From the NCBI GenBank assembly GCA_009840215.1, contig VXOC01000234.1, positions 1 through 37,689 on the forward strand: a stretch of 37,689 nucleotides of DNA. Reading direction: 5' to 3'. The stretch comes from Gemmatimonadota bacterium (lineage in GTDB: Bacteria; Gemmatimonadota; Gemmatimonadetes; Longimicrobiales; Gaopeijiaceae). The notes beneath the pieces were generated by a model. The model worked only from the letters and a program-made list of their open reading frames with translations, was not told the DNA's origin and made no database searches. Every line of letters begins with the position of its first letter. Position 1 is the stretch's first letter. Both the position numbers and the translations under genes were made by a program. Of the stretch, positions 2,016 to 37,067 are shown piece after piece.

Positions 2016-2054
2016 TGTCAACCTTGGTTGACATTTTGTTAATCATAGTTGACA
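2016..2054 (+). promoter_or_regulatory. 39-bp tandem dyad element, copy 1
   Basis: Two 18-bp dyads are separated by TTT: TGTCAA-CCTTGG-TTGACA and TGTTAA-TCATAG-TTGACA. The first is an almost perfect palindrome (TGTCAACC-TT-GGTTGACA). Read rightwards, TTGACA at 2028-2033 is a perfect -35 hexamer. After a 17-bp spacer comes GACAAT at 2051-2056, an acceptable -10. The copy sits in the 178-base gap between the propeller gene and the esterase gene, about 130 bases before the preferred esterase start, so it probably drives the esterase. Five further copies with identical geometry occur in the window. The dyad could also fire leftwards. Confidence 0.8.
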
Positions 2055-2186
2055 ATTCTCCAAACCCATGGCCGACCGGACCGGTGTCTTGAGGGCGCGG
2101 CCGGAGGGCGCCCGCCCTGAGTCGACGCGCCGGTCGATTTCCCATAGTTTCCGAGGCAATCCCGGATGACAGGAGGCCCGCCGCCG

Positions 2187-3557
2187 ATGCACCCATTGCG
2201 CCACCGTATCTCGATCGCCCCGCTCTTCGCTCTCGCCCTGCTCACCGCGTGCGGCGACCCGGATACAGTCATTCCCGACCCCGCGCCCACCACCATCGAG
2301 ATCATCGCGGGAGACGGCCAGCGGGCCGTTCAGGGACTTCAGCTGGAGGACTCCGTGATCGTCCGCGTGCTGGACCAGGAGGGCCGGACGCTCTACGGCG
2401 CCGAGATCACCTTCACCCCGGGTGCGGGCCACGGGCAGGTCGATTCGGCGTCGGCCGCCACGGACGCCGCTGGCCGGGCGCATGCCTTCTGGACGCTCGG
2501 CACGGATCCCGGCAACCAGACCCTGACCGTCGCGGCGGGTGCGGCCAGCGCCAGCGTCGGTGCGACGGCGCTGGACCTCGAGGCGGAACTGGACGTGGTT
2601 TTCGCCCCCCCTTCACAGGCCGAGATCGACGCGGTTGGAACCGACTGGGCCGCTCGCGACGTCTCCGCCACCGGCGTGCGGGTTGAGCTCACCGAGCCAC
2701 TGTCGCTGGTGGGATCGCCCGCCACCCTGAGAATCGTTTCGCATACGGTCACCGGAGCCCGCCACTACGGGGCCATTGTCGTTCCCGACGGTGCATCCGA
2801 GGAGAGTCTGCACGTTCTGGCGTACCTGCACGGTGGCGACGGGGGCGTTTCGGTGGCAGACCTGCAGTTCGTCGCCCTGCCGCTCGGGGAGTTGCGTGAC
2901 AGCTTCGTGTACGTGGTTCCCTCCTTTCGCAGCGAACCGCTCAGGCACGACGGACAGAGCTGGATCTCGGAGGGCACGTCAAGCCCGTGGGACTACGACG
3001 TGGACGACGCGATCGCGCTCATGACCGTCGCCTTCGAAACCACGCCGGAGGCCAGACCCGGCGGCTACAGCGTCATCGGCGGCAGCCGGGGCGCCGGGGT
3101 GGCCCTGCTCGCCGGGGCCCGGGACGAGCGGATCCGGAGGATCGTCGCCTTCTACGGTCCCACCGACTTCTACGACGACTGGGTGCGGGAGATCGTGCGC
3201 GAGGCGGCGCTCCGAATGCCGCGCAGCCTCCCCGGGGTCACCCACCTCGACTCCACGGTGGTGCAGCCCTTCATACGGGGTGATCGCGGGCCCGCCGATG
3301 TTCGGCTGGAACTGGCGCGCCGGTCCTCGGTACTCTTCGCGGCCGGCCTGCCGGCGGTCCAGCTCCACCACGGAACAATCGACCAGGTCGTCTCCGTGTC
3401 ACAGGCCGAATCCATGATCCGCACCATGGAGGCGCTGGGCCGCGGGCCGCCCGACTTCGAGGCGTACATCTACGAGGGCGGGGGGCACGACTTCCTCAGT
3501 TTGCAGGAGGCCATCCAGCGCGCGGTCGAGTTCGTTTCGCGCGAGTTCGGCGGATAG
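2187..3557 (+). CDS. secreted Ig-like plus alpha/beta hydrolase lipoprotein
   Basis: The predicted protein has 456 residues. ATG 2187 is preferred to the in-frame ATG 2166 because AGGAGG precedes it and the signal peptide then begins properly. That signal peptide is HRISIAPLFALALLTAC, with lipobox Cys 22. Residues about 30-125 resemble a bacterial Ig-like (Big_1) domain, including VIVRVLDQEGRTLYGAEITFTP and TDAAGRAHAFWTLG. The remainder is an alpha/beta hydrolase of the dienelactone hydrolase/prolyl oligopeptidase type. It has the nucleophile elbow GGSRGAG (Ser about 300), an acid in HGTIDQVVSV (Asp about 399) and a catalytic His in GGGHDFLS (about 434). It probably hydrolyses esters or peptides outside the inner membrane; the substrate is unknown. 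The 39-bp element at 2016 lies upstream. Confidence 0.8.
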   Translation: MHPLRHRISIAPLFALALLTACGDPDTVIPDPAPTTIEIIAGDGQRAVQGLQLEDSVIVRVLDQEGRTLYGAEITFTPGAGHGQVDSASAATDAAGRAHAFWTLGTDPGNQTLTVAAGAASASVGATALDLEAELDVVFAPPSQAEIDAVGTDWAARDVSATGVRVELTEPLSLVGSPATLRIVSHTVTGARHYGAIVVPDGASEESLHVLAYLHGGDGGVSVADLQFVALPLGELRDSFVYVVPSFRSEPLRHDGQSWISEGTSSPWDYDVDDAIALMTVAFETTPEARPGGYSVIGGSRGAGVALLAGARDERIRRIVAFYGPTDFYDDWVREIVREAALRMPRSLPGVTHLDSTVVQPFIRGDRGPADVRLELARRSSVLFAAGLPAVQLHHGTIDQVVSVSQAESMIRTMEALGRGPPDFEAYIYEGGGHDFLSLQEAIQRAVEFVSREFGG

Positions 3558-3600
3558 CGGCCCGCTCAAGCCGGGATGACGCCACCCGTCCGGCCCGCAA

Positions 3601-4974
3601 CTACATGATCACGCGCCGCATGTATTGCCGCACCTTCTCCATGTACTTCTCGAAGAAGTACTTCTGGATGTCCATCATGTCGAGTTCGCGGCCCTGGATG
3701 TAGGCCTGCTCGATGTCGCTGGTCATGTCGAGCGGCGTTCCGGTCGTGATCAGGAAGGTCGCCTGCTTGCCCGGCTCCAGGGAGCCGACGCGGTCGTCGA
3801 GCCCGAGGAACTGCGCCGGGTTGATCGTGACCGCTTTCAGCGCCTCTTCCTCGGGAAGCCCGAAGGCGACCGCCACACCCGCTTCGAAGGGCAGCCGGTT
3901 CGAGTACAGCGACCCCGAGCCACCCGCAATCGCGAAGCGCACGCCGGCCTCGTGCAGACGCGCCGGCATCGAGTATGCGCCGTCGTAGCCCTCGTATTGC
4001 CGGCCGGGTCCGGACATCGTCGAGGTCAGGATCACCGGTATGTCCTCGGCGACCAGGCGGTCGGCGACATGGATGGCGTCCCGTCCGCCGCGGATGACGA
4101 TGCGGAGATCCTCCTCCTGCGCCCAGGTGATGGCGTCGTTCATCTGTGCCGCACCGTCGGCCGCGACCACGACTGGGAGATCGCCGTCGATGACCGGCAT
4201 CATCGCGGCGTAGCGCGAGTCGCTGCGCACCTCCTCGCCGGCGGCGACCGCGTCGCGATAGGCCCGCGCCTCCGCGAAGAAGTCCTTCAGCTGCTGGACC
4301 TGCTCCTCGTAGCTCGGCGGATCCTCCTGTGGGCCGAACCTGAAGCCGGGGAACCCGCGGAAGCCGCGGCGGTTGGGGTTCGGCCAGTTCACGTTGAGTG
4401 CCGTTGCCGACTGCATCGACATCTCCTCCCAGCTCCACCCCTCCAGGGCCATCGCGGAAGACATGCCGGAGACGAGTCCGCCGCCGGGAGTCGTGAGCGT
4501 GGTGAGCACGCCAGCCGAGCGCGTCGTGCCGATATGGCGGCTCTCGGCGTTCACCGCGATGTCCGCGCGCACGTTCGGATTGAAGTCGCCCAGTTCGTTG
4601 ACGTCGTTGGATACGTCGACCGCGCCGATCTCGGCGATCCCCACCGTGCTGTAGGCGTCAATGAGACCGGGGTAGATGTGTTTCCCCGTGGCGTCGACCA
4701 CGCGTGTTCCGGCCGGGATGTCCACGTCGGCACCGATCGCGGTGATCAACCCGTTCTCCAGGAGTATCGTCCCGTTCTCGATGACACCGCTGGTGACGGT
4801 GTGGATGGTGGCGCCGACCAGCGCAACCGGTTCGGACTGCGGGGGCACCGTCATTCGCACCTGGGCTCCCAGGACCGCCGGCGCCATCGCCCACAGGACC
4901 GTCACAACCGCCGTGACCCTGCACCCGACCCCCGGGAGACTTCTCTTCGTCGCTCTTCGCTGTGTCGTCGTCAT
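3601..4974 (-). CDS. exported amidohydrolase-family protein lacking the HxH metal motif
   Basis: The predicted protein has 457 residues with an N-terminal signal sequence (VTAVVTVLWAMAPAVLGAQ). The amidohydrolase fold is recognisable from ALVGATIHTVTSGVIENGTILLENGLITAIGADV at the N-terminal sandwich, GTRVVDATGKHIYPGLIDAY, and the C-terminal ALKAVTINPAQFLGLDDRVGSLEPGKQATFLI. Where active members carry D-x-H-x-H after PGxI, this one reads PGLIDAYSTVG, so both histidines are absent. It may be catalytically dead or use a partner. Its ATG overlaps the stop of the upstream 1002-residue amidohydrolase (ATGA, 4971-4974), implying translational coupling and probably a joint complex. An ATG start with this overlap is well supported. 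Confidence 0.85.
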   Translation of the reverse strand: MTTTQRRATKRSLPGVGCRVTAVVTVLWAMAPAVLGAQVRMTVPPQSEPVALVGATIHTVTSGVIENGTILLENGLITAIGADVDIPAGTRVVDATGKHIYPGLIDAYSTVGIAEIGAVDVSNDVNELGDFNPNVRADIAVNAESRHIGTTRSAGVLTTLTTPGGGLVSGMSSAMALEGWSWEEMSMQSATALNVNWPNPNRRGFRGFPGFRFGPQEDPPSYEEQVQQLKDFFAEARAYRDAVAAGEEVRSDSRYAAMMPVIDGDLPVVVAADGAAQMNDAITWAQEEDLRIVIRGGRDAIHVADRLVAEDIPVILTSTMSGPGRQYEGYDGAYSMPARLHEAGVRFAIAGGSGSLYSNRLPFEAGVAVAFGLPEEEALKAVTINPAQFLGLDDRVGSLEPGKQATFLITTGTPLDMTSDIEQAYIQGRELDMMDIQKYFFEKYMEKVRQYMRRVIM

Positions 4975-8556: not shown

Positions 8557-8568
8557 GAACCGCGACCC

Positions 8569-9306: not shown

Positions 9307-9315
9307 CCATATCTG

Positions 9316-10149
9316 TCAGCGGAGCAAATCCTCCAGCCGGATCCGCTCGCCGGTACGGTCGTCGCGGTACTTCACGATCACCGGGGCCTGCAGCGACAGG
9401 TCCCACTCGCGTCCAGGGCCCCTTCCGATGGGCCGGGACCCGGGCACTAACACCGCGTCCTCGGGAATGACCAGGGGACCGTCGTCCCCCGCGCGGATCA
9501 CTTCGCCGCGGGCGATATCGAAGACGGGCGTCGAGCGCGTGAGGATGACCCCCGCCCCCAGCACGGCCCCCCGCTTCACGATCGCGCCCTCGTAGACGCC
9601 GCAGTTGCCGCCGACGAGCACGTCGTCCTCGATGATCACGGGAAGGGCGCCGACCGGTTCGAGGACGCCGCCGATCTGCGCCCCCGCGCTGATGTGGCAG
9701 CGCCGGCCGACCTGGGCGCAGCTCCCCACCAGGGCGTGCGAGTCGATCATGGTGCCATCCCCCACCCGCGCGCCGACGTTGACGTACATGGGGGGCATGC
9801 AGGTCACGCCCCGTCCCAGGTACGCGCCCTCGCGCACCGCCGACCCGCCGGGGACCACGCGCGTCCCGCCCCCCGGGGGCGAGGTCTTCGGGGGGAAGGT
9901 CGACTTGTCGCTGAAGTGGAGGAGGCCGTCGCCGAGATCGTACCGGGCCAGGGTGCCGAGGCGGAATCCCAGCAGGATCCCGCGCTTCACCCATGCGTTC
10001 ACGCGCCAGCCCTGCGGGGCGGCGGGGTCGGGTTGGGCGGCGCGGATCTCGCCGGCGCTCAGGAGGTCGCGGAATTCGGCGAAGAGGTCGTGGTCGGCCG
10101 AGAGGGGGGTGGGGCGCGCGAAGGCCTCATCGATGCGGCGGGAGATCAA
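9316..10149 (-). CDS. dapD: 2,3,4,5-tetrahydropyridine-2,6-dicarboxylate N-succinyltransferase
   Basis: The predicted protein has 277 residues. It transfers succinyl from succinyl-CoA to tetrahydrodipicolinate in the succinylase branch of lysine/diaminopimelate synthesis, in the cytosol. The N-terminal helical part ends in GWRVNAWVKRGILLGFRLG. The left-handed parallel beta-helix follows, with hexapeptide runs such as VREGAYLGRGVTCMPPMYVNVGARV, GDGTMIDSHALVGSCAQVG, HISAGAQIGG and VIIEDDVLVGGNCGVYEGAIV, then FDIARG. No ATG is available; the start is TTG at 10149, overlapping the TGA of a 17-codon frame (TTGA). The 39-bp element ends 16 bases upstream, so dapD may have its own promoter inside the operon. 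Confidence 0.93.
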   Translation of the reverse strand: MISRRIDEAFARPTPLSADHDLFAEFRDLLSAGEIRAAQPDPAAPQGWRVNAWVKRGILLGFRLGTLARYDLGDGLLHFSDKSTFPPKTSPPGGGTRVVPGGSAVREGAYLGRGVTCMPPMYVNVGARVGDGTMIDSHALVGSCAQVGRRCHISAGAQIGGVLEPVGALPVIIEDDVLVGGNCGVYEGAIVKRGAVLGAGVILTRSTPVFDIARGEVIRAGDDGPLVIPEDAVLVPGSRPIGRGPGREWDLSLQAPVIVKYRDDRTGERIRLEDLLR

Positions 10150-10199
10150 TAGAGGGTCCCTAACTGTATACTACAGATGACATATTGTAATGTTTGCAT
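10146..10199 (-). CDS. possible 17-codon bridging ORF between dapA and dapD
   Basis: The dapA stop reads TAATG, so an ATG at 10199 starts at once. It encodes MQTLQYVICSIQLGTLY and ends in a TGA that overlaps the TTG start of dapD (TTGA). The small frame runs through the whole 39-bp element. It could act as a ribosome relay that couples dapD translation to dapA, or it could be accidental. No conservation can be checked here, so confidence is low. Confidence 0.3.
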   Translation of the reverse strand: MQTLQYVICSIQLGTLY

Positions 10200-10203
10200 T
10201 ACA
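10165..10203 (-). promoter_or_regulatory. 39-bp tandem dyad element, copy 2 (dapA-dapD junction)
   Basis: On the minus strand it reads TGTAAT-GCAAAC-ATTACA, then ATA, then TGTCAT-CTGTAG-TATACA. The first dyad has perfect 6-bp arms. Read leftwards, ATTACA (10191-10186) as -35 and TACAGT (10168-10163) as -10 are separated by 17 bp, with the dapD TTG 13 bases beyond the -10. A transcript from here would have a very short leader. The dapA stop codon TAA lies inside the first dyad. It is probably a secondary, regulated promoter within the dap operon. Confidence 0.75.
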
Positions 10204-16163: not shown

Positions 16164-17225
16164 ATGCCCGCATCCAACCGCATCCACGACCTCCTCGGAC
16201 CCGAAGCCGAAGACCTGCTGACCTATCGCGCCACGGGCTTTCCGAGAGACCGCCTCCACCTCCCGGGCCCCGACTTTGTGGACCGGGTCGTCGCGGGAAC
16301 GGACCGCAGTCCCCAGGTGATGCGCAGCATGCAGCAGATTCTGGGCAACGGGCGGCTGGCCGGTACCGGCTACGTCTCGATCCTGCCGGTCGACCAGGGG
16401 ATCGAGCACTCGGCCGGCGCTTCCTTCGCGCCCAACCCGGTCTATTTCGACCCCGGGAGCATCTGTGAGCTGGCCGTGGAGGGCGGGTGCAACGCCGTGG
16501 CGTCCACGCTCGGCGTGCTGGGTTCCGTGTCACGCCGCTACGCGCACCGAATCCCCTTCCTCGTCAAGCTGAACCACAACGAACTGCTGACCTATCCCAA
16601 CCGCTACGACCAGGTCATGTTCGCTAGCGTCCAGCAGGCGTGGGAGCTGGGGGCGGCGGCGGTGGGCGCTACTGTCTACTTCGGGTCCGACCAGGGGATG
16701 CGTCAGCTGCAGGAGGCGTCGGAAGCCTTCCAGATGGCGCACGAGCTGGGCATGGTGACCGTGCTGTGGTGCTACCTGCGCCAGTCCGCCTTCAACACCG
16801 GCGGGAAGAACTACCACGCGGCCGCCGACCTGACCGGGCAAGCCAACCACCTGGGGGTCACGATCGAGGCCGACATCGTGAAGCAGAAGCAGGCCGAGCT
16901 GGACGGAGGCTACCGCGCGGTCGGGTTCGGCCGCACCCACGACAAGGTCTATTCGGATCTGGTCCCCGGCGCGCACCCGATCGAGATGACGCGCTACCAG
17001 GTCGCGAACTGCTACATGGGGCGGGTCGGGCTGATCAACTCGGGCGGCTCGAGCGGAGACAACGACTTCGCGCAGGCGGCGCGCACGGCGGTGATCAACA
17101 AGCGGGCCGGCGGAATGGGGCTGATCTCGGGACGGAAGGCGTTCCAGCGCCCGATGTCGGAGGGGGTGAAGCTGCTGAACCTGATCCAGGACGTTTTCCT
17201 CGACGAGTCGATCGGGGTGGCGTAG
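16164..17225 (+). CDS. fbaB: class I fructose-bisphosphate aldolase (FbaB/DhnA type)
   Basis: The predicted protein has 353 residues. It cleaves fructose 1,6-bisphosphate to dihydroxyacetone phosphate and glyceraldehyde 3-phosphate through a Schiff base, in the cytosol. Telling segments are [77 protein letters not shown] and [12 protein letters not shown], the last matching the conserved GRKAFQRP run of FbaB-type enzymes. ATG 16164 follows CAGAGGACC. The reading frame is open far upstream but the family N-terminus begins here. Its last 214 bases are covered antisense by the 3' end of the Ig/LRR gene. The identity is firm; the stop at 17225 is normal. Confidence 0.92.
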
Positions 17226-20200
17226 GGAGAGCCGGCGCCAACCGAGAGGGCACTCCACCGTCCGCCCGGGAGGGTGAGCGATTCGAGCGCTGCATCGTCC
17301 TGCTGTCCCGTGCTCACCGTCAGCGGCAGGTCCGGGGACCGCGTGAGCACGTAGCCGTGGTGAACCGGACGGATCTCGCCCCGGGGGCTCGTGTAGTCGT
17401 CCCCAAACGGAATCTCCGGCAGAATTCCGATGTCAACGGATACCGACCCGTTTCCGGGCGAGGCCGACGTGACGTTGACGACCGCGCTCCGCACCGCACC
17501 GGTCGGGATCGTGATGGTGCCGTCGCCGCTCGACGAGCCACCGTCTACGACCAGCGGGATCCTGATGGGGAAGGGCGCACCGGCAGACACGGTGGCCTGA
17601 AGCTGGCCTGAACCCGGAGAGGTCAGAGAAACTTCGATCGGCATCGGATCGACATCGTTGCCATGCAGCCATAGCGCCTGCAGCGACGACAACCCGTGCA
17701 AGACACCGTCGGGAAGCCCACCGAGGTTGTTGTCGCTGAGCAGGAGTTGACTCAGCGCCTTTGTGCCGGCAAACAGATCGGGCGACAGCGCGTTGAGACC
17801 GGTGTTGGTCAGATCGAGTTGCTGCAGACTCGAGAGATCGCTGAACACGCCGTCGGGCAGCGTGTCCAACTCGTTGCCCTCCAGGGTGAGGGTGACAAGT
17901 GATGTCATCCCCGAGAACAGGTCTTCAGGCAGCGCGGTGAGTCCGCTTTCGTACAAGTACAGGATCTCCAGCGACGACAACCCGGAGAATACCTCGGACT
18001 GAAGGGTGGCATAGTCGTTGCCTTCAACATAGAGCCACATGAGAGAAGACAGCCCCGAGAACAGACCCGATGGCAGCGACGTGAGCCTGTTGTGGCTGAA
18101 GTTCAGTTCTTCGAGGCTGGTCAACCCCGAGAACACGTGTGCCGGCAGCGATGCGAGCTTGTTGTAGGACATGAGCAGGACTTTCAATGACGGAAGCTCC
18201 GAGAAGACATCCGACGGCAGTCCCGTCAGTTGGTTTCCGTAGAGGTGAAGCCGCAACAGTCCGGCAAGCCCGGCAAAGTCGCCCGACTTCAACGAAGTGA
18301 TGCCCTGGTTTTCAAGTGACAGACGGGAGATCGTGGCGAGTTGGGTGTCGGTAACCCCCGTGCAGTCACCGGTCCCCAGGATCTCGAGGATCCCGTTCCG
18401 GACGGCGGTGGTACGGTTGCAAATGGGGGACGGGCTGCCCGGTTCGATCACGGTAACGTCGAAGTCGAGCCTTGCGGCGACGCCCGACGGGTCGCGCCCG
18501 GTGACCTCGATTGTGGCAGCACCGGGTGCCACCGCTCCCACCGCCACCTCGCTTCCGGACACCTTCGAGGTGACCGCCGATGTGTCGGAACTCGCGGTTG
18601 TGAAGGCCAGCTCGTCATCGTCCGGGTCGACCATGTAGCGCGCGGCGTCGAGCGTCATCGAGTCGCCTGAGGTCAGGATCCTCGCGGTGACCGAGCCGAC
18701 CACCACCGGGGCGCGGTTCGTTCCGGACCCCTCGTGGACGGCTACCGTGATTTCGAGCGTCGCGGTCAGCCCGCCGGGGTCACGCGCGGTGATCGCGAGG
18801 CTCGCAGTATCCGGATCCCCCGCCCGCATCCGCACCGTGTCAGCCGAAACGGTCGCCCTGAGGACCACAGTGTCAGAACTCGTCACCGAGAAACGCAAGG
18901 GGTCGCCATCGGGATCCGAGAAACGTGAGCCGACGGCCAGTGTCCTGAAGTCGCCTTCCTCCATCGTCCGGGGCGAAATCCGGCCAACGACGATCGGAGA
19001 CCGGTTCGCGCCCGTACCGGATCCATTCGACTTCCGCACCTGCACCGAAACTTCATGCTCCGCGGACAATCCTCCATTGTCCCGTCCCACGATCGTCAGG
19101 GTCGCGGCCCCCTTCCTCACCGCCCGCACCAGGACCTCCTCTCGCGACACCCACGTCTTCGCCACCCTCGGATCCGAACTCGTCGCTTCGAAGACCAGCG
19201 AGTCGCCATCGGGATCGCTGAAGTGTGGCGAGGGACTCAGCCGACGAATCCCGGATTCGGAAAGGCGAATCGCCTGCACCTCGCCGAGCGCGAGGGGTGC
19301 ACGGTTGGGGACGCTCACGCCGAGCGTCCGGGTGGCCGTGAGGTCTTCCGGATCGGTGGCCGCGATCGTCACGGACGTCTCGCCCTTCGCGAGCGCCGCC
19401 AAGGTCAGCGAGGGTCCATCGAGCGAGACCCGGGCCACGTTGGAGTCGGAGGAGGTGGCCGCGAAGGACAGGGCGTCGCCGTCGGGATCGGTGAAGAGGG
19501 GAAGCAGCGCGAGCTCTACGGAGTCTCCAACCTCGACGGTTCGCTGCTCGATCGTACCGACCGGACGCGGGGGCCGGTTGCGTACCGTCACGGCAAGCGG
19601 TTGCACGGCCGCCAGGCCTGCCACATCGGTGGCCGTGACCGTCACGGTGGCCTCGCCCCGCGCGATGACCGCGATGGTCATGAGAGCGCCGGAAACCGTG
19701 ACATCGATCACCGCCGAGTCGGAATCGGGTGCCGAGAAGGTCAGGGGGTCCCCGTCGGGATCGCTAAACCAGGGCACCAGTTCGATTTGCGCGGTATCTC
19801 CCGGTACGGCGGTCCAGGGCGGGATCGCGCCAAGGGCGACCGGCGCCCGGTTCGGGACGGTTGCGGTCATGACCTGGGCGATGGCCAGCCCCTCGGGGTC
19901 GTTGGCAGTGATCGTGATGGCGGTCTCGCCCTTCGCGACCGCCGTGATCGTCAAGGCGGACCCGCCGATGGAGGCCCTCGTCACCGTGGTGTCCGCGGCG
20001 GCGGCCGTGTAGAACAGCAGGTCGCCGTCGGGATCGCTGAAGAGCGGCAGGAGATCGAGCGCGACTGAATCGCCGACCTCGATGGTCCGCGGCCGGATCG
20101 TTCCCCTCGCCACCGGTCCCCGGTTCGGCACGATCACCGTGAAGGTGTGCGCGACGACGAGCCCTTCCGCGTCCGTGGCCGCGATTGTCACAGCCGCCTC

Positions 20201-21322
20201 GCCCTTCGCGATCGCGGCGATCGTGACCGCCCCACCCTCCACCGCTGCGCCGACCACGGTGGAGTCCGATGTCTCGACCGCGTAGACCAGCGTGTCGCCG
20301 TCGGGGTCGTGGAAGAGGGCCACCGCGTCCAGGCGTCTGGACCCTCCAACCGGCACCGTATCGGTCGCGACGGCGCCGACGACCACGGGAGGCCGGTTCG
20401 GAACGGTGACAACGAACTCGAGCGTCGCCGCCAGCCCCTCCGGATCGGTGGCGGTTACGGCGACGGTGACCGTGCCCTTTCGCAGCGCCGCCGCCCGGAC
20501 CGTATCCCCGGAGACCGATGTCGCAAGGCCCCGCGGGTCGGATGGAGCCGCAGCGAAGATCAGCGGGTCTCCGTCCGGGTCGCTGAAGTGGGCGGCGACA
20601 TTCTGCACCACCCTCTCCCCCACTTCCACCGTTCGCTCCGGGATCGAGTCCACCGCGACCGGCCCCCGGTTCGGAACCGTCACCGTGAACTCCTGAGTGG
20701 CCGACAAACCGCCCGGATCGGTCGCAGTAACCACGATCGCAGCCGCCCCCTTCGCCAGCCCGTCCACCGTCAACAGGGCATCGATTCCGCTGACCCACGT
20801 CACGCTCGTGTCGGAGGACAGTGCCCTGTAGCTCAATTCCTGGCCGTCCGGCTCGGTGAAATACCCACTCACCTCCACCGCGGCGGACCCACCGGCGGAG
20901 ACCTCGAGCGGCGCGATGGTCCCGACCGGGGCGGGACTGCGGTTCGGCACCATGACCTTGAAGCGTGTCTTCGCCGTCAATCCGCCCGGATCGGCCGCCG
21001 CCACGGACACCATCGAGTGGCCGGGAGCCAGCCCGGTGAGCGTCAGTGTGGCCGTCGCGGCCCAGGCAGAGGCCACGCCGGAATCCGATGCGGTGGCCGA
21101 ATAGCTAAGGAGGTCACCGTTGGGGTCGTCGAAACACGCTCGGACGGTCGCTGTTTCGCCGACGTGGACCACCTGGTCGGGGATGGTGCCGCATGCCACG
21201 GGCGACTGCGGGCTGTCGCAGGCGAGACACGCCAACACACCGGCCACCGCCGCCCAGGGGCGAATGTTACATTGACAACGCTTCAAACGGCTTGCCGCCG
21301 TGTGTGGTGCTTGTGCCGACAT
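17012..21322 (-). CDS. giant Ig-like and leucine-rich-repeat lipoprotein
   Basis: The predicted protein has 1436 residues. ATG 21322 follows GGGAGAG; a TTG further upstream is less likely. A lipobox-like VLACLAC sits at the end of the signal sequence. About ten tandem Ig/cadherin-like repeats of some 85 residues follow, each with NRxPVxxGxI, VEVGDSVxL, FSDPDGDxLxF, SSDxxV and TATDPxGLxA; the SDPDGD boxes suggest calcium binding. Residues about 995-1230 form ten 24-residue leucine-rich repeats (LxxLxLxxNxLxxLPxxVFSGLSS) with a Cys-containing cap ([10 protein letters not shown] and [10 protein letters not shown]). A beta-rich tail ends the protein. The last about 71 residues are antisense to the aldolase gene and are probably read-through. 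It is likely a surface adhesion protein; LRR repeats of this eukaryote-like type are common in host-associated bacteria. Confidence 0.8.
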
Positions 21323-21935
21323 GCCACTGCTCTCCCGTTCAACGGCCAGGTGTGTGCCTTCCCCTTCATCGGGTAGCCAGAGCAAATCGACAAAACTCTA
21401 TCGCATTTGCGGCTCCTGTTCCAGTGCCGGCAGACTGTTGATTGACCCGGGAATCTCCGAGTCGGCGCGATCTGGTCGTAGCAGGAACTGATTGTCTGCC
21501 ACTCGGAATACGGGGTGCGGTCATGTAAGCGGCAACCGCAAGTGCATACAGCAATGTATGCAAAAACAGGTTTACATAACGCTTCCTTCTTGAAATCCAA
21601 CCGCCCGCCCACCCCCGATTCCGGTGGCTGTTTCCTTGAGAGGCGTCAACCCCCGACACCCACCTAGCCGGATCCGGCATTGACCGGCTCGCGCCAAACG
21701 CATAATCCTCGCGTCCACGATGCGTAAGAAGACCGTTGAAGTGCACAATTCTGTGTACAATGGGTATCGTTCGTAACAGTCGTTGTTTCAATCACATGCA
21801 CAGATCGCAGGTGGTTTCGGATCCGGCTTTTCCCGAGCGCGTTCGGGAGCTTGTCGCGCGCCTCGGCCAAAGGTGCCCGTCGAGGTGTCCGGGGCGAAGC
21901 CGCAACCAACCTTGCCCCACCGCCCATCCACGCCC
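21323..21935. other. 613-base intergenic region with two palindromes
   Basis: No convincing gene is seen; small frames here lack family features and codon bias. It is AT-richer than its surroundings. It holds TGCATACA-GCAA-TGTATGCA at 21543-21562 (perfect 8-bp arms) and GTGCACA-ATTC-TGTGTAC at 21741-21758 (7-bp arms, one mismatch), both with 4-base centres. A TTTACA lies at 21571. It is upstream of the Ig/LRR gene and probably carries that gene's promoter and operators, but no -35/-10 pair could be fixed. Confidence 0.55.
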
Positions 21936-22439
21936 TCAGTCGATCCCCGCCACCCCGCTCCGCCTCTCCATCAACACCACGTCGCGCCATCGTCCGTCGT
22001 GGAACCGGCCGAGCCGTTCATGCGTTCCCAGGACCCGAAACCCGCACTTTTCGAAGACCCGGATCGAGGCCGCGTTCTCGGGAAAGATGCCCGCCTGCAG
22101 CGTCCAGATCCCCAGTTTTTCGGTCTCTTCCACGAGCCTGCACAGCAGTCTCGTCCCCACCCCCCTTCCGCGCGCAAACTCCCCCAGGTAGATCATGACC
22201 TCGCGCACCCCCCCGTAGACCGGACGCTCCGAAACCGGGCTAAGACCGGCGTACCCCGCCACCTCGCCGTCCACCTCGGCGACGATCCGACACTCCGGAC
22301 TTCGGGCCGCGTCCCAGCTCTCCCAGTCGGGGACCTCGGTCTCGAAGGTGGCATCGCCCGACTCGATCCCCTGACGGTAGATCTCCGCAATTGCGGGCCA
22401 GTCCCGGGACGTCATCGCGCGAAAATGTATATCAGACAT
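21936..22439 (-). CDS. GNAT N-acetyltransferase, phosphinothricin acetyltransferase-like
   Basis: The predicted protein has 167 residues. It resembles PAT/YncA-type GNAT enzymes, which acetylate small amines with acetyl-CoA. It shows IHFRAMTSRDWPAIAEIYRQGI, DATFETEVPDWESWD, VDGEVAGYAGLSPVSERPVY, the acetyl-CoA loop EFARGRGVGTRLL, GIFPENAASIRVFEKCGFRVLG and FHDGRWRDVVLMERR. ATG 22439 supplies the first beta strand but lies inside the 39-bp element. The next ATG (22415, MTSRDWP) would begin 8 bases beyond the element's putative -10, giving a leaderless message but losing part of the strand. The start is therefore open; the family is firm. Confidence 0.88.
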   Translation of the reverse strand: MSDIHFRAMTSRDWPAIAEIYRQGIESGDATFETEVPDWESWDAARSPECRIVAEVDGEVAGYAGLSPVSERPVYGGVREVMIYLGEFARGRGVGTRLLCRLVEETEKLGIWTLQAGIFPENAASIRVFEKCGFRVLGTHERLGRFHDGRWRDVVLMERRSGVAGID

Positions 22440-22464
22440 TACATTCTGTAAATCAGAGTTTACG
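22426..22464 (-). promoter_or_regulatory. 39-bp tandem dyad element, copy 3 (over the GNAT start)
   Basis: On the plus strand it reads TGTATA-TCAGAC-ATTACA, TTC, TGTAAA-TCAGAG-TTTACG. Read leftwards, TTTACA (22452-22447) and TACATT (22429-22424) are 17 bp apart. The GNAT ATG at 22439 lies in the second dyad at the same place as the M20 peptidase ATG in copy 6 (TGTAATGTC). Either the annotated starts are too far upstream or a bound protein would sit directly on the start codon. Confidence 0.78.
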
Positions 22465-22580: not shown

Positions 22581-23351
22581 CTACTCCTCCTCCTCGGGCT
22601 CGGTGGAGTGCACCGCAAACGGGATCCCCTGCGGGTCCATGCACTGCGCGATCACGTCGCCGCCGGGCACCTCCATGGGCCCGTTCAGGATCCGCCCGCC
22701 CGAGGACTTCACCGTTTCCACCGCGGCATTCACGTCCGGCACCCGCACATAGAGCGTCCACCCGACTCCCGGCATCCCCGGCGGCCCGTTCATGATGCCC
22801 CCCAGCGGGTGCTTTCCCCGGCCGAAGGTCTGGTAGAACCCCATGTCGCCCATGTCCATGCGCGCCGCCGCCTCCCAGCCGAACACCTCGGAGTAGAAGG
22901 CCCACGCGGCGTCGGCGTCGGTAGTCGCGAGTTCGTGCCAGGAAAACTCGCCCAGCTCCGGTGGCCCGTCGTGGCCCGCGGCGTCGCCTTCCGGCTCGAT
23001 GACCGCGATCACTCCGCCCTGCGGGTCCGCGATCACCGCAAAGCGCCCCACCTCGGGCACGGTTATCTCGCCCATGATGTTGCCGCCGAGGTCGCGCACC
23101 TTCGCCGCCGTCGCGTCGAGGTCGGGCGTGGAGACATAGGCCAGCCAGCAGGGAGGAACGTCCGGCGCCGGCAAGTCCATCAGGCCGCCGACCGGCATCT
23201 CGCCGTTCATCCACATCTCGTAGGGCTTTTCGCCGCCGTCCCACACGCTGGTGCCCCAGCCGGTGATCTGCGAATAGAAATCGCGGGCCGCGCCCGTGTC
23301 GGTGGTCATGATTTCGTGCCAGGAGAAGCGGCCCAGGGGTTTGTCGGACAT
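22581..23351 (-). CDS. two-domain VOC (glyoxalase/extradiol-like) protein
   Basis: The predicted protein has 256 residues. Two homologous vicinal-oxygen-chelate halves are present. Residues about 1-125 hold GRFSWHEIMTTDTGAARDFYSQITGW, GGLMDLP, AYVSTPDLDATAAKVRDLGG and FAVIADPQGGVIAVIEP. Residues about 135-250 hold GEFSWHELATTDADAAWAFYSEVFGW, GGIMNGPPG, VRVPDVNAAVETVKSSGG and AQCMDPQGIPFAVH. The paired WHE histidines are candidate metal ligands. This is the usual layout of VOC proteins often labelled glyoxalase/hydroxylase-like, with unknown substrate. ATG 23351 is chosen because the family N-terminus starts here; the upstream extension is non-coding in character. The tail is five glutamates after TEP. 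Confidence 0.87.
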   Translation of the reverse strand: MSDKPLGRFSWHEIMTTDTGAARDFYSQITGWGTSVWDGGEKPYEMWMNGEMPVGGLMDLPAPDVPPCWLAYVSTPDLDATAAKVRDLGGNIMGEITVPEVGRFAVIADPQGGVIAVIEPEGDAAGHDGPPELGEFSWHELATTDADAAWAFYSEVFGWEAAARMDMGDMGFYQTFGRGKHPLGGIMNGPPGMPGVGWTLYVRVPDVNAAVETVKSSGGRILNGPMEVPGGDVIAQCMDPQGIPFAVHSTEPEEEE

Positions 23352-26061: not shown

Positions 26062-26435
26062 GGCGGGCGTGTCCCCGGTGGGAAGGGCGGCGGGAGACGG
26101 CGTTGGGAGCCGGGCCTGCCGGTCCTTCGGTGGTCAAGGGGAAACGGTCGCGAGGGGCCCAGGGCGCAGGAATGACTGGATGGGACTGATTTGGTGGATG
26201 GTTGGGGGATTCGGATGGCCAACCGCTTGCAGATGTAAATCGTACATTCCATATTGGAAAGTATGATTGACATTTGGTGGGATGGAGCCGTGCGTGCCCG
26301 GCGGTTGCAACGCCATGCGGCAGAGTCGGCCAAGCCGCTACACCCGCAACCGACGCAACCGTCCCGCTCCTAGTATCTTCCAACGTTGCCGCAACCCTTC
26401 ATTTGCAGCCGCACACCGTACTTCCCGGGAGCACG
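26062..26435. other. 374-base divergent intergenic region at the left edge of the R-M gene
   Basis: It separates the leftward Rpn remnant from the rightward restriction-modification gene. It contains copy 4 of the 39-bp element near its middle (173 bases from one start, 164 from the other). Frames that extend the R-M gene upstream of 26436 through this region lack family character. Nothing else is recognised. Confidence 0.6.
26234..26272. promoter_or_regulatory. 39-bp tandem dyad element, copy 4
   Basis: It reads TGTAAA-TCGTAC-ATTCCA, TAT, TGGAAA-GTATGA-TTGACA, the most degenerate copy but with exact 18-3-18 spacing. It is followed by TTTGGT, as is copy 5. Rightwards it gives ATTCCA-N17-GACATT and leftwards TTTCCA-N17-TACATC, both weak. 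It could serve either the R-M gene (start 164 bases right) or the Rpn gene (173 bases left). Confidence 0.65.
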
Positions 26436-29400
26436 ATGGCCGGACCAGACAGAAAGATGATCGCTGCGGTGGAGGCGTATTTCACCGACCTCCGACAGGT
26501 GCGGGCATCGGGCGGCGCGACGGGGGAGCGGTCGTACTATCCGGCGCTGGCGAGCCTCATCGGCGTGGTCGGGCGCACGCTCAAACCGAGAGTATTCTGT
26601 GTTCTGGAGGCGGCCGATCAGGGTGCTGGCCATCCCGACTATGCCCTCTACACCGCGAGGCAGGTACAGAAGGGCCGGCCGCGGGAGGGGCAGGTCCCGG
26701 AGCGGGGCGTCGTAGAGGTGAAGGGAGTCGGGGAAGACGCTTGGCTGACGGCGGAGTCGGATCAGGTGAGCCGCTACTGGGGCCACTACCGATTGGTACT
26801 GGTGACGAACATGCGGGACTTCGTGCTGGTGGGTGCGGACGGATCGGGCAGTGCAGCCAAGCTCGAACACTTCCGGCTGGCCGAGGACGCGAACGACTTC
26901 TGGACCAAGGTCGAAAAACCTCGCGCCTTCGCCCGCGAAGTGGGGGCGGGGCTCGGCGAATACCTTGCCCGGGCCCTTTCACACCGAGCCACCCTAACGG
27001 AGCCGAAGGACCTGGCCTGGGTGCTCGCTTCGTACGCCCGCGATGGACTCTCCCGGGTCGAGGCGGCGGGAAGACCGGCTTCCCTCATGACTCTTCGGTC
27101 TGCGCTGGAGGAGACGCTTGGCATTCGCTTCAAGGGCAAGCGCGGCGAACGCTTTTTCCGTTCTACGCTGATCCAGACGCTCTTCTACGGAATCTTCTCC
27201 GCCTGGGTGCTTTGGTCGCGTGATGAGCTCGGCAAGGACGGCCCGCCGTTCGAGGCTGGCCATGGCCCACGTAGGTTCCGGTGGCGCTTAGCTGTCTGGC
27301 ACCTGCGGGCCCCTGTTCTGCGTGCGCTTTTCGGGCAGCTGTCCGATCCCGGCCGATTGAAGCCACTCGGTCTGGTCGAGGTCCTGGACTGGGCGTCGGC
27401 GGCGCTCAACCGCGTGGACCGGGCTGCCTTCTTCGCGCGGTTCAACGAAGGCGATGCGGTGCCGTACTTCTACGAGCCGTTCCTCGAAGCCTTCGACCCG
27501 GCGCTACGCAAGCAGCTGGGCGTCTGGTACACCCCGTCGGAGGTGGTCCGCTACATGGTCGCCCGGGTAGACAAGGCGCTCAAGAACGATCTGGGAATCT
27601 CCGAAGGGCTGGCGGCGGAGAACGTCTATGTGCTGGACCCGTGCTGCGGCACCGGAGCCTACCTGGCCGAGGTGCTCCGCCGCATCGCGAAGAACCTGGA
27701 GGGGCACGGCCTCGGGGCACTCGCAGGCCAGGCGGTGAGGAAGGCAGCGACTGAGCGCGTGTTCGGGTTCGAGATCATGCCCGCGCCGTTCGTCGTCGCG
27801 CACCTGCAGGTCGGCCTGACCATGCAGAATCTGGACGCGCCCCTGGCCGCCAACGGATCTGAGCGTGCGGGCGTGTTCCTCACCAACGCGCTGACCGGGT
27901 GGGAGCCGCACATGACCAAGCCGCTGCCCTTCCCGGAACTCGAGGAAGAACGTGACCAGGCGGACCGTGTGAAGCAGGACACCCCGATTCTCGTGATCCT
28001 CGGAAACCCTCCCTACAACGGGTTCGCGGGAATGGCGGTGGACGAGGAGCGCGAGCTCTCGGAAGCGTACCGCACGACCAAGCGTGTCCGGCGGCCCGAG
28101 GGCCAGGGACTCAACGATCTCTACGTCCGCTTCTTCCGCATGGCCGAACGGCGCATCGCGGTGAGGACCGGCCAGGGGGTGGTGTGCTTCATCTCCAACT
28201 ATTCTTGGCTCGACGGACTGTCCTTTACCGGGATGCGGGAGCGCTACCTGGAGGCGTTTGACGCGATCCGGATCGACTGCCTGAACGGCGACAAGTACAA
28301 GACGGGCAAGGTCGCGCCGGACGGTTCGCCGGACCCGAGCATCTTTTCGACCGAAGGGGATCCGGTCGGCATCCAGGTAGGCACGGCCATCGCGACACTC
28401 GTCCGCAAGGCGGACCACGAGCCCGTCAGGTCGGTTGGGTTCCGGAATCTCTGGGGACAGGAGAAGCCGGAGGAGTTGATTGCGACGGCCGAGGGGGAAC
28501 CGGATTCGCTCTACTCGGAGATCGAGCCCGTGCTCCCGCTGGGGCTGCCCTTCGTGGATACGGCTGTCAGCGAGGACTGGTTCGACTGGCCCGCGCTGCC
28601 GGAGTTGTTTCCGGTATCGTTTCCGGGGGTTCAGACGGGTCGCGACGCGTTTTTGGTGGACACCGACCTTGACCGACTGCAGACGCGCGTAGGCAACTAT
28701 TTCGATCCGGCGCTGAGTCATCAGGAGATCGCCCAGCGCTATCCGAGGGTGATGAAGTCCACGGCGCGGTTCGATGCACGAGCGGTACGCGAGGGACTGC
28801 TGAAACGCGGGGACTCCGATGAATCTGGATTCGTACCCTTCGCCTACCGACCGTTCGACAACCGCTGGCTGTATTGGGAGAAGGATACGAAGCTGCTGGA
28901 CGAGAAGAGGGCCGACTACCGGCCCCATGCGTTCGAGGGGAACCTCTGGCTGTCGGCTGCCCAGCATCTGCGGAAAGGGGTGGATGAACCGCAGACCTAT
29001 CCCACGGACTACCTGGGTTCTCGTCACTTGATCGAGCGTGGCGCCCTCATGTTTCCGGCTTGGCTTCGTGAAGGGGGCCTTGGGTACGATGCCGACACCG
29101 GGCGACGCACGAATCTGTCGGCCGCGGCGGAACGCTATCTCACCTGTCTCGGTCTCGGTGTTCAGGACCTCTTCCACCACGTCCTGGCCACCTTGCACGA
29201 TCCCACCTACCGGCAGGACAACGAGGGTGCGCTGCGCGTGGAATGGCCACGTATCCCGCTGCCCGGATGGCCGGACGGCGATACCGAGGGAGCCACTGAA
29301 AAACTTGCTCAGTCGGCGGCGCATGGGCGGAAGCTCGCCGCGCTGCTAGATCCTGAAACCCCGGTCCCCGGTGTCACCCGGCCACCCCTGCGTCCCGAAA

Positions 29401-29870
29401 TCGCCGCGATCGCCGTCCCCTGTACCGTCGCGGGACGCAACATGACAGGGGAGGACTTTGCCGTCACCGCCGGGTGGGGGCACTCCGGCGCGGGCGACGC
29501 CGTGATGCCTGGCCGGGGCCGCATAGTCGAACGTTCCTACGCGCCGGAGGAGACAGCGGCCATGAGGGATGCGGCGGACGTTCTCGGCGACAGGTCTCTT
29601 GATGTCTACCTGAACGGCGAGGCCTTCTGGCGCAACATCCCCTCACCCGTCTGGGACTACCGACTCGGCGGCTACCAGGTGCTCAAGAAGTGGTTGTCCT
29701 ACCGCGAACAGAAGGTCCTCGGCCGGAGACTGCGGGCCGAGGAGGTCCAGCACTTCGCGGACACGGCGAGACGGATCGGTGCGCTGTTGATGGCACAGGC
29801 TGGAGGGGTGGGAGGGTACACGACATGGCCGGATCTTGATTCCGGCCGCTCAAATGTAATCACGACTTGA
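26436..29870 (+). CDS. single-chain restriction-modification enzyme (PD-(D/E)XK - N6 methylase - type ISP C-domain)
   Basis: The predicted protein has 1144 residues. ATG 26436 follows GGGAGCACG. The N-terminal domain carries a nuclease-like signature: HPDY (Asp about 68), VVEVKG (Glu 94, Lys 96) and a following Gln (SDQVSRYW). An amino-methyltransferase core follows, with AdoMet motif DPCCGTGAYL (about 400) and catalytic ILGNPPYNGF (NPPY about 525). The C-terminal half matches the type ISP specificity/C-domain style: PFAYRPFDNRWLYWE, SRHLIERGALMFP and the closing VWDYRLGGYQVLKKWLSYREQKVLGR. No SNF2-type helicase motifs are seen, unlike classical type ISP enzymes such as LlaGI. It therefore resembles a type IIG/IIL-like enzyme. 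The stop codon lies in copy 5 of the 39-bp element. Confidence 0.87.
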   Translation: MAGPDRKMIAAVEAYFTDLRQVRASGGATGERSYYPALASLIGVVGRTLKPRVFCVLEAADQGAGHPDYALYTARQVQKGRPREGQVPERGVVEVKGVGEDAWLTAESDQVSRYWGHYRLVLVTNMRDFVLVGADGSGSAAKLEHFRLAEDANDFWTKVEKPRAFAREVGAGLGEYLARALSHRATLTEPKDLAWVLASYARDGLSRVEAAGRPASLMTLRSALEETLGIRFKGKRGERFFRSTLIQTLFYGIFSAWVLWSRDELGKDGPPFEAGHGPRRFRWRLAVWHLRAPVLRALFGQLSDPGRLKPLGLVEVLDWASAALNRVDRAAFFARFNEGDAVPYFYEPFLEAFDPALRKQLGVWYTPSEVVRYMVARVDKALKNDLGISEGLAAENVYVLDPCCGTGAYLAEVLRRIAKNLEGHGLGALAGQAVRKAATERVFGFEIMPAPFVVAHLQVGLTMQNLDAPLAANGSERAGVFLTNALTGWEPHMTKPLPFPELEEERDQADRVKQDTPILVILGNPPYNGFAGMAVDEERELSEAYRTTKRVRRPEGQGLNDLYVRFFRMAERRIAVRTGQGVVCFISNYSWLDGLSFTGMRERYLEAFDAIRIDCLNGDKYKTGKVAPDGSPDPSIFSTEGDPVGIQVGTAIATLVRKADHEPVRSVGFRNLWGQEKPEELIATAEGEPDSLYSEIEPVLPLGLPFVDTAVSEDWFDWPALPELFPVSFPGVQTGRDAFLVDTDLDRLQTRVGNYFDPALSHQEIAQRYPRVMKSTARFDARAVREGLLKRGDSDESGFVPFAYRPFDNRWLYWEKDTKLLDEKRADYRPHAFEGNLWLSAAQHLRKGVDEPQTYPTDYLGSRHLIERGALMFPAWLREGGLGYDADTGRRTNLSAAAERYLTCLGLGVQDLFHHVLATLHDPTYRQDNEGALRVEWPRIPLPGWPDGDTEGATEKLAQSAAHGRKLAALLDPETPVPGVTRPPLRPEIAAIAVPCTVAGRNMTGEDFAVTAGWGHSGAGDAVMPGRGRIVERSYAPEETAAMRDAADVLGDRSLDVYLNGEAFWRNIPSPVWDYRLGGYQVLKKWLSYREQKVLGRRLRAEEVQHFADTARRIGALLMAQAGGVGGYTTWPDLDSGRSNVITT

Positions 29871-29893
29871 CATATTGTAATGTCTGCTTGACA
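29855..29893 (+). promoter_or_regulatory. 39-bp tandem dyad element, copy 5
   Basis: It reads TGTAAT-CACGAC-TTGACA, TAT, TGTAAT-GTCTGC-TTGACA, then TTTGGT. TTGACA at 29867-29872 is a perfect -35 hexamer and GACATT at 29890-29895, after 17 bp, a partial -10. The stop TGA of the R-M gene lies inside its first dyad. The next start (AAA ATPase, 30057) is 164 bases downstream, the same distance as between copy 4 and the R-M start. It is the likely promoter of the ATPase/TOPRIM pair. Confidence 0.8.
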
Positions 29894-31882: not shown

Positions 31883-31928
31883 CCAGAATCACGGGAGCGC
31901 CACGCTTGGTGAGGGGTCCCGTTCGTTC

Positions 31929-33851: not shown

Positions 33852-33887
33852 GGTCCGCAGGCGGTCTTGTACGCCACGAGTGGCCTG

Positions 33888-33959
33888 AAGTGGCCGACAA
33901 ATCCGCCCAGAGATGGTTTGTCCGTCAAAAGTGGGCTCAAGTGGCCGACAAACTCGCCC
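33888..33959. repeat. pair of 21-bp direct repeats upstream of the P450 fragment
   Basis: AAGTGGCCGACAAATCCGCCC at 33888 and AAGTGGCCGACAAACTCGCCC at 33939 differ at two bases and lie 51 bases apart. Partial copies (AGTGGCCTGA, AAGTGGGCTCA) precede each. The layout of several short related repeats resembles the complex ends of some insertion sequences (IS21-like), but no transposase is present. It may mark a lost element. Confidence 0.5.
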
Positions 33960-34004
33960 GATCGCGGGTCGTGGAAGACGCATTGAACCGTGGGCAAACA
34001 CGAC

Positions 34005-35147: not shown

Positions 35148-35463
35148 GGTCCCCCTGTCCCGTCGCGAATCCGGCCGACGCGGGGGCCAGGTGTCGCCCG
35201 CAGTTCCAGACATCCCGTTCACGCGGTCCACGCTCATCGCGGCGTTCTCCTCGTGTCGTATCGTCACGTGGCGAAAGGTCGTTCATCAGGCTCGGGCCCG
35301 GTTTCCCGCCGCCGGCCTTCACGACGGAACCTGCCATTGCCTTGCCCGGCGTGCAATCATAGGCTTGCCCGCGAGGCCGCTGAGCCCCACGGTTCCCCAC
35401 TGTCGCGCGTGGGGCCACCAATCCCCGCCCACCACCTCGACACCCTCACCGACCGGAGACCCC
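35148..35463. other. 316-base divergent intergenic region
   Basis: It lies between the leftward serine hydrolase and the rightward phosphatase. Both promoters should be here. No 39-bp element, strong palindrome or RNA gene was seen. Confidence 0.5.
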
Positions 35464-35976
35464 ATGCGCCGTCTGCTCCTCGCACGGCACGCGAAGTCGA
35501 GCTGGGGCGACCCGAGCCTCGCGGACCACGACCGGCCGCTCAACAAGAGGGGGCGCCGCGCCGCGCCCCTCGTCGCCGCCACCCTCGCCGACCGCGGCTT
35601 CGTCCCGGACGCAGTGCAGTCGAGCAGCGCGTGCCGAACCCGCGAGACCTGGGAGTTCATGGCACCGCATCTGGGCGGGCACCCCCACGTCGAGTTCCTC
35701 TCCGAGCTGTATCTGGCTTCGCCGCGGGCCGTGCTGCGCACCATCGCCACGGCGCCCGCCTCGGCCCACACGCTGATGGTCCTGGGGCACAATCCGTCGA
35801 CCCACGCCCTCGCCGCCTACCTTGCACGCACCGGCGACCAGGAAAAGCGGGACCGCATCATCCGCTCCTTTCCGACGGGGGCGGTCGCGGTCGTCGAGCT
35901 GGCCGGCGACGACTGGAGCGACGCGGGCACAGGCGGGGAACTTCTCGACTACGTCATTCCGAAGATGCTTTGCTGA
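35464..35976 (+). CDS. SixA-like histidine phosphatase
   Basis: The predicted protein has 170 residues. ATG 35464 follows GGAGACCC. It has the catalytic RHG-type motif in the SixA form, LLLARHAKSSW, then DHDRPLNKRGRRAAP, SSACRTRETWEF, ELYLASP and the second His in VLGHNPSTHALAAYL. SixA-like enzymes dephosphorylate phosphohistidine on small proteins or act on small substrates. The tail ends in DYVIPKMLC. It is followed by PPK2 after about 105 bases, both concerned with phosphate, but an operon is not certain. The longer frame upstream is antisense to the hydrolase. Confidence 0.88.
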   Translation: MRRLLLARHAKSSWGDPSLADHDRPLNKRGRRAAPLVAATLADRGFVPDAVQSSSACRTRETWEFMAPHLGGHPHVEFLSELYLASPRAVLRTIATAPASAHTLMVLGHNPSTHALAAYLARTGDQEKRDRIIRSFPTGAVAVVELAGDDWSDAGTGGELLDYVIPKMLC

Positions 35977-36081
35977 TCGACCAGGCGACCTTGGGACGGC
36001 AGATCAACCTCGCTTTCGCCTTTCGCCCGCACCGCGCTTAGGTTGAAGCCGATCTTCGATTCCGCGACGGGACACAACAGG

Positions 36082-36951
36082 ATGACCGGCGACGCTCCCC
36101 CCCCAGCCAACGATCTCGGCCCCGAAACCATCCGGCGCGTCTTCCGGGAGGGTGTCTACCCCTACACCGAGAAGATGAAACGGCGCGAATACGAGGAAAA
36201 GAAGGCCCCACTCCAGGTCGAACTGCTCAAGGTGCAGCGCTGGGTCCGGGGTTCGGGCAGGAAGATCGTCATCCTTTTCGAGGGCAGGGACGCGGCGGGC
36301 AAGGGTGGCACGATCAAGCGTTTCATGGAGCACCTCAACCCCCGGGGCGCGCGCGTCGTGGCCCTGGACAAGCCCAGCGAGGTCGAGCGCGGGCAGTGGT
36401 ACTTCCAGCGATACGTCCAGCACCTGCCCACCACCGGCGAAATGGTCCTCTTCGACCGCTCCTGGTACAACCGGGCCGGCGTCGAGCGGGTCATGGGGTT
36501 CTGCACGGGGCAGGAATACCTCGAGTTCCTGCGCCAGTGCCCCGAACTGGAGCGCATGCTGGTCAACAGCGGCATCCTGCTCTTCAAGTTCTACTTCTCG
36601 GTGTCGCAGCAGGAACAGGTGCGCCGTTTCGACAGCCGCAAGACCGACCCGCTCAAGCAGTGGAAGATCTCGCCGGTGGACATCGCCTCGCTCGACAAGT
36701 GGCCCGACTACACGCAGGCGAAGGAGGCCATGTTCTTTTACACCGACACGGCAGACGCGCCCTGGACCGTCATCAAGTCGGACGACAAGAAGCGGGCGCG
36801 GATCGCCGCCATGCAGCACTTCCTGTCGAAGCTGTCGTATCCCGACAAGGACGAGGACGTCGTCACCGGGCCCGACCCGCTTATCGTCGGTCCGGCGACC
36901 CGGGTCGTCAGCCGCGACGAGCCGATGGCGGACGATCCGGTGGCGTTGTAG
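36082..36951 (+). CDS. ppk2: polyphosphate kinase 2
   Basis: The predicted protein has 289 residues. It transfers phosphate between polyphosphate and nucleoside phosphates. It shows the PPK2 core: LQVELLKVQRWV, Walker A ILFEGRDAAGKGGTIKRF, the lid-side LDKPSEVERGQWYFQRYV, Walker B LFDRSWYNRAGVERVMGFC, then KFYFSVSQQEQVRRF, KQWKISPVD and WTVIKSDDKKRARI. ATG 36082 is preferred to the in-frame TTG 36043, since the family N-terminus (IRRVFREGVYPY) follows closely. The single-domain size fits class I enzymes (NDP phosphorylation). Confidence 0.93.
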   Translation: MTGDAPPPANDLGPETIRRVFREGVYPYTEKMKRREYEEKKAPLQVELLKVQRWVRGSGRKIVILFEGRDAAGKGGTIKRFMEHLNPRGARVVALDKPSEVERGQWYFQRYVQHLPTTGEMVLFDRSWYNRAGVERVMGFCTGQEYLEFLRQCPELERMLVNSGILLFKFYFSVSQQEQVRRFDSRKTDPLKQWKISPVDIASLDKWPDYTQAKEAMFFYTDTADAPWTVIKSDDKKRARIAAMQHFLSKLSYPDKDEDVVTGPDPLIVGPATRVVSRDEPMADDPVAL

Positions 36952-37028
36952 CCGCCGGGGGCACGGGTCTCCACGACTTCAGCCCCTCGGTTCATCCGTG
37001 GCGATGCACGCTGTTCCGTGGATTGCAC

Positions 37029-37067
37029 TGTAAACGACGCTTTACATAATGTAATGTCGCGTATACT
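37029..37067 (+). promoter_or_regulatory. 39-bp tandem dyad element, copy 6 (over the M20 start)
   Basis: It reads TGTAAA-CGACGC-TTTACA, TAA, TGTAAT-GTCGCG-TATACT. The first dyad has perfect arms identical to the TyrR-box consensus TGTAAA-N6-TTTACA. TTTACA at 37041-37046 and TACTTT at 37064-37069 are 17 bp apart. The M20 peptidase ATG (37054) lies in the second dyad at the same place as the GNAT ATG in copy 3. Confidence 0.8.

Follow-up and report, generated by a model that had tools for sequence, protein, structure and literature searches.

A paired-dyad 39-bp element dispersed through a Gemmatimonadota genus as the probable operator of an XRE-family regulator with a ModA-like sensor domain

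The element in the window and its internal pattern

The window analyzed here is a 37,689-nt stretch of contig VXOC01000234.1, from a Gemmatimonadota genome (G000) of 4,085,139 bases in 370 contigs. It holds six copies of a 39-bp element composed of two 18-bp dyads separated by 3 bp (18-3-18), each box approximating TGTMAWSYRYRSWTKACA, and all six copies that had been predicted were confirmed at their coordinates. We scored the copies by the twelve letters of their four half-sites (TGT, ACA, TGT, ACA).

Copy 1, 2016..2054, no strand: 12/12 letters; between a beta-propeller gene (683-2008, +) and a gene starting at about 2187 (+)
Copy 2, 10165..10203, no strand: 12/12 letters; between dapA (ends at 10199, -) and dapD (starts at 10149, -)
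Copy 3, 22426..22464, no strand: 11/12 letters; between minus-strand genes 21936-22415 and 22581-23351
Copy 4, 26234..26272, no strand: 10/12 letters; in the gap between divergent genes, ahead of a type ISP restriction-modification gene
Copy 5, 29855..29893, no strand: 12/12 letters; overlaps the end of the type ISP gene (26436-29870, +) and precedes an AAA_21 gene (30057, +)
Copy 6, 37029..37067, no strand: 11/12 letters; between a gene at 36082-36951 (+) and one starting at about 37054 (+)

The TGT/ACA letters, described in the original prediction as conserved, are complete in three of the six copies (2016, 10165 and 29855); one letter is lost at 22426 and at 37029 and two at 26234, where both inner half-sites are altered (ACA to CCA and TGT to TGG). 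In copy 2 the dapA stop codon is provided by the TGTAA of the element. This copy is also present in G018 and G021, and the stretches printed ahead of dapD for G007, G003, G011 and G004 showed none. Searches of the window and four further loci against Rfam gave no match. Elsewhere in the window, positions 17012-21385 encode a giant protein with LRR and Big/cadherin repeats.

The exact twelve-letter pattern occurs 78 times in G000, and its reversed control 0 times. Counts exceeded what composition would yield, as had been anticipated, with 31 exact and 8 eleven-letter matches in 357,950 bp and zero of either in three Markov shuffles. Within 400 kb of G021 sampled in even steps and not selected for sites, 3 of the 14 sites with at least 10 letters were exact; exact counts are therefore lower bounds and the true numbers are higher. 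Pairing was strict, as 312 of 359 TGTMW-N8-WKACA dyads from five genomes stood in exact 18-3-18 pairs, in a count for which most regions had been chosen for containing sites. In the analysis as a whole, such a choice applied to the regions taken from G000, G002, G017 and G018 and to some of those taken from G011 and G021. The only other gaps between dyads were 37 (twice) and 16 (once), all in G011, and these fit two neighbouring elements.

The N6 cores vary, as originally described, but not at random, since they follow roughly WSYRYRSW; likewise the 18-3-18 layout of two dyads was upheld, but the symmetry statistics point to the middle of the full 39-mer as the axis. Among 123 sites without repeat flanks, in rows that include loci L193-L224, whose organism is not listed, pairs 4-36, 7-33, 12-28, 13-27, 14-26 and 16-24 covaried about this centre (z 3.9-5.9), and pair 15-25 covaried in the opposite direction. 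Only some pairs, including 14-26 and 16-24, covaried among 31 repeat-borne sites. Such covariation can reflect a protein complex, subclasses of sites or palindrome-correcting mutation.

Distribution of the sites and a candidate regulator

Exact copies number 11-189 in 22 of the 23 genomes of the genus, with the maximum of 189 in G011, and zero in G009. A match, in a single copy, was found in one of 17 other genomes of the same order. When a sample of 298 genomes from the phylum was searched with a tighter pattern, 17 of 18 genus genomes had 7-170 copies, and 7 of the 280 genomes outside the genus had exactly one match each, a distribution that agrees with the lineage-wide factor envisaged at the outset. 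A scan of named genomes returned at least 112 stretches; 80 of these included many Gemmatimonadetes/Gemmatimonadota MAGs, one of them named Candidatus Palauibacter rhopaloidicola, and the remaining matches listed were mostly single and from scattered taxa. The genus of the window is probably Candidatus Palauibacter, a sponge-associated member of the Gemmatimonadota. In the only complete genome the sites were dispersed (Rayleigh p 0.06, 54 of 58 positions entered).

We examined three of the seven single sites outside the genus. The site in G248 is not near the regulator gene described below. The one in G238, a sister-genus MAG, lies on a contig (C63, L381) that matches G002 at 92% identity along 3.5 kb and at 99% along 0.5 kb, and was probably misbinned or recently transferred. 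In G182, of a sister genus, the only exact site stands upstream of a gene encoding an XRE-type HTH and a PBP_like domain (PF12727), which is followed by a ModA-like gene.

The equivalent gene of G000 (C235:8980-10092) is located outside the window, and its product matches HTH_3 at residues 10-63 and PBP_like (PF12727) at 156-337. It is directly followed by a ModA-like gene (SBP_bac_11), and a ModA-like gene also follows in 7 of 8 printed genus loci. Orthologs were detected in 22 of the 23 genus genomes and not found in G009 (94% complete), the sole genus genome with zero sites. Sites and regulator thus occur together in 22 genomes and neither occurs in G009, a contrast that depends on this one genome and may stem from a single evolutionary event or from a gap in the assembly. 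An in-frame TGA is present in three of the 22 matches (G012, G008 and G005), and the match in G011 (L405) is partial, with 261 aa, a cut PBP domain and intact HTH matches. In a sample of the family, the protein was present in 54 of 116 genomes at E 1e-40 or better. Its best match among solved sequences is CylR2, a small HTH repressor.

An 18-3-18 site was located 50-128 bp upstream of the aligned regulator start in 22 of 22 genus genomes. One of its twelve letters is changed in 16 genomes and two in 6, at positions 1, 3, 16, 23 or 39, so that it is complete in 0 of 22. We do not claim that the regulator's own operator is deliberately weakened, as exact sites were also only 3 of 14 in the unselected region of G021. 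Of 14 sister-genus loci, several of which come from close relatives, 13 include sequence upstream of the gene. An 18-3-18 site matching 9-12 letters was present there in 9 of the 13, and in the other 4 a variant whose gap is 4 bp was recognized by eye. The results of our literature searches contained no description of the 39-bp sites or of an XRE-PBP operator.

Placement, conservation and carriage of the dispersed sites

Genes were predicted with a simple in-house caller in long stretches of five genomes, in which 79 sites had no repeat flanks. Of these, 71 could be placed in gaps between genes (48 co-directional, 12 convergent and 11 divergent), 5 were inside genes and 3 at contig edges. The available gaps numbered 437, 92 and 147, respectively, and the shares used did not differ from availability (divergent p 0.28, convergent p 0.47). 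In a count of gap types over all loci, with 98 sites free of repeat flanks, all six window copies among them, and 61 with such flanks, the divergent share did not differ between the two classes (p 0.12). Flanking genes had no common theme (96 of 114 listed proteins scanned; best 25 of 122 families), consistent with the original view that they are unrelated, and only one conserved site was found at a molybdoenzyme-type gene (FAD_binding_5). By a simple scan of loci from G000, G002, G011, G018 and G021, U-tract hairpin terminators were nearly absent (8 of 727 gene ends): 2 were found at the 125 gene ends that have a site and 6 at the 602 that lack one, too few for comparison. At L316:2516 and L034:4541 the site falls within a long open reading frame and is kept in two species.

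A promoter class specific to the lineage, in which each copy would give the adjacent gene a -35 and a -10, had been raised as one interpretation, and we now regard it as very unlikely. TTKACA-N17-TACAnT can indeed be read in many copies, the median distance to the next start is 48.5 bp (60 co-directional sites), and 22 of 36 scorable co-directional sites are oriented like the genes. However, the other 14 face the opposite way, convergent gaps are occupied, divergent gaps are not enriched, and a -35/-10 pair for the adjacent gene in each copy was not supported. An RNA hairpin, acting as terminator or processing site, would suit the finding that 42 of 59 co-directional sites are closer to the stop codon on their upstream side (p 0.0004), as well as the scarcity of U-tract terminators and the covariation about the 39-mer centre. 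We nevertheless give this explanation the slightest chance of all, given that repeat-borne co-directional sites have a similar but weaker bias (20 of 32, p 0.07), that pair 15-25 anti-covaries and the nine inner pairs are formed in just 32-51% of rows, and that both strands are equivalent and one conserved site is located within a long open reading frame.

Of 47 directed comparisons among G000, G018 and G021, 37 showed a site at the corresponding position and 10 did not. Alignment attributed most of these absences to repeat insertions, to poor matches or to a single chance match in coding sequence, and two appeared to be true absences of a solitary site (L041 vs L299 and L239 vs L296). Across 19 distinct orthologous pairs, identity was 99% at the 12 key letters, a value biased by the search pattern, 74% at the other letters of the site and 53-56% in the flanks; the pairs are not all independent, including two three-way sets, and a few are repeat-borne or loosely orthologous (L009 vs L351). 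Orthologs keep TGT/ACA while cores and flanks change, which favours the earlier idea that the window copies are putative protein-binding sites and not copied sequence. The dispersed sites are probably maintained by selection.

Some sites are carried by a repeat. Flanks similar to those of other sites in the same genome were found for 38 of 50 sites in G011, 10 of 39 in G000 (3 of which represent a separate local duplication on L036), 2 of 22 in G002 and 0 of 7 in G017. The five window copies that match 11 or 12 letters had no such flanks. What the similar flanks have in common is a dispersed imperfect palindrome of ~250 bp with tips like TAGCAGYCCGTGGACA. Two carrier insertions face an empty orthologous place (L235 vs L136 and L034 vs L316), and in the former pair a TA duplication was recognized by eye, which concerns the ~250-bp carrier only and not a solitary 39-mer. 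Where a repeat carries the 39-mer, this part is better preserved than the rest, and orthologous repeat copies with and without it were observed (L352 and L035). The carrier resembles ERIC/REP-type elements and IS630-type MITEs, which are intergenic imperfect palindromes, in its intergenic position, its palindromic form and its apparent insertion at TA, but differs from them in holding an apparent regulator operator near its middle. The similar flanks in G011 and G000 and the insertions opposite empty sites could also mean that the element is mainly a mobile repeat, a MITE core or relic with no host protein. We consider this quite improbable, as the five tested window copies and most sites of G000, G002 and G018 lack repeat flanks, the 39-mer is conserved where flanks differ, and it is missing from some copies of the repeat.

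A proposed operator and its multiplication

Any assignment of a binding protein has to be weighed against another global regulator, such as a TyrR- or PpsR-type protein, ArgR or an unknown nucleoid protein, for which the site upstream of the XRE-PBP gene would be one target among others. PpsR/CrtJ and TyrR contain a Fis-type HTH. The unrelated flanking genes would suit such a regulator, as would the motif itself: PpsR has the consensus TGT-N12-ACA, the TyrR box reads TGTAAA-N6-TTTACA, and such dyads are often paired, as here (PMC4452267, PMC4374768). ArgR uses two 18-bp ARG boxes spaced 3 bp apart, as in our element (PMC6640053). On balance this explanation is unlikely. In the examples from these sources PpsR/CrtJ and TyrR pairs are at least 8 bp apart, as against 3 bp here, and the distribution does not match. 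Five genus genomes, G009 among them, have 3-6 Fis-type (HTH_8) matches each and G023 has 10, and no group of these tracks the sites (30 loci). TyrR, whose box the original prediction had recognized in the half-sites, is not supported: no Fis-type HTH group follows the sites in six genomes, whereas the XRE-PBP regulator does. ArgR is a hexamer of a different protein family with a different target sequence, and we rejected ARG boxes because the letters conserved in each box here, TGT at 1-3 and ACA at 16-18, differ from those of the ARG box. Finally, the sole exact site of G182 and the 18-3-18 sites of 9 of 13 sister-genus loci are upstream of the XRE-PBP gene.

The element is thus probably the operator of the XRE-family HTH regulator with a ModA-like PBP sensor domain (PF12727), an ancestral mod operator that has been multiplied. 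As the upstream site is found in 22 of 22 genus loci and 9 of 13 sister-genus loci, this operator would have been autoregulatory before its spread across the genus. ModE-type molybdate repressors similarly control mod transport from an upstream operator, but have other DNA-binding and sensor domains and few targets. From gene order and domain kinship, we infer that molybdate would be the ligand of the regulator. PF12727 is also fused to MoeA, a molybdenum-cofactor protein, in Desulfovibrio (PMC10102598).

In its ancestral role, as suggested by the sister genera, the regulator would control its own mod operon, and in the genus the operator would have been multiplied to tens to hundreds of mostly intergenic sites, some of them inside the ~250-bp MITE-like repeat. 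With their spacing of ~10.5 bp, the four half-sites would accommodate two dimers side by side on one DNA face, an arrangement that formed part of the original prediction and fits the spacing; alternatively, they may accommodate one dimer with two flanking subunits. Because pairing is near-obligate, binding of the putative tetramer may be cooperative. At the dispersed sites, bound protein would most likely act locally, as a repressor or as a roadblock to elongation between genes. C-proteins of restriction-modification systems belong to the XRE family and, unlike the present system, act at one local box, without a sensor domain and without genome-wide sites. The predicted likeness of the proposed regulator to C.Kpn2I lies in a small HTH controller that binds a composite box as two dimers and regulates its own expression, and bound C.Kpn2I stalls elongating RNA polymerase (PMC6237814). 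Because of this stalling, and because the 21-bp spacing of dimers fits the gap, we rank local repression or roadblocking above a nucleoid-like role.

A broader reading, which we offer tentatively, is that a molybdate-type repressor has become a chromosome-wide DNA-binding protein with more than 100 mostly non-promoter sites, acquired partly via the MITE, at which tetramers would form roadblocks or insulators and make gene boundaries molybdate-responsive. That such roadblocks or insulators would operate in a lineage nearly free of U-tract terminators is an equally speculative part of it. The system may allow the passage of a regulator from local to global action to be traced within one bacterial genus, with the stages represented by the operator of the sister genera, the tens to hundreds of copies here, the transposable repeat as a vehicle and the natural absence in one species. 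For a lineage that is apparently uncultured, it also names a candidate protein behind a genome-wide signal, and it raises the question of whether DNA-bound proteins serve as gene-end roadblocks genome-wide in bacteria.

Some further observations concern the carrier repeat. MITE-like elements of ~250 bp lie at L235:1366-1620, L034:2398-2658 and L136:2697-2948. Two copies were folded, and each formed a single long hairpin over its full length, with the 39-mer close to the apex. At L232 (G021:C1, ~207,100-207,900) three identical copies of the repeat follow one another head to tail at a period of 249 bp. The right tip of the repeat holds three nearly identical IS110-family elements, at L359, L360 and L364, as if this tip were their target.
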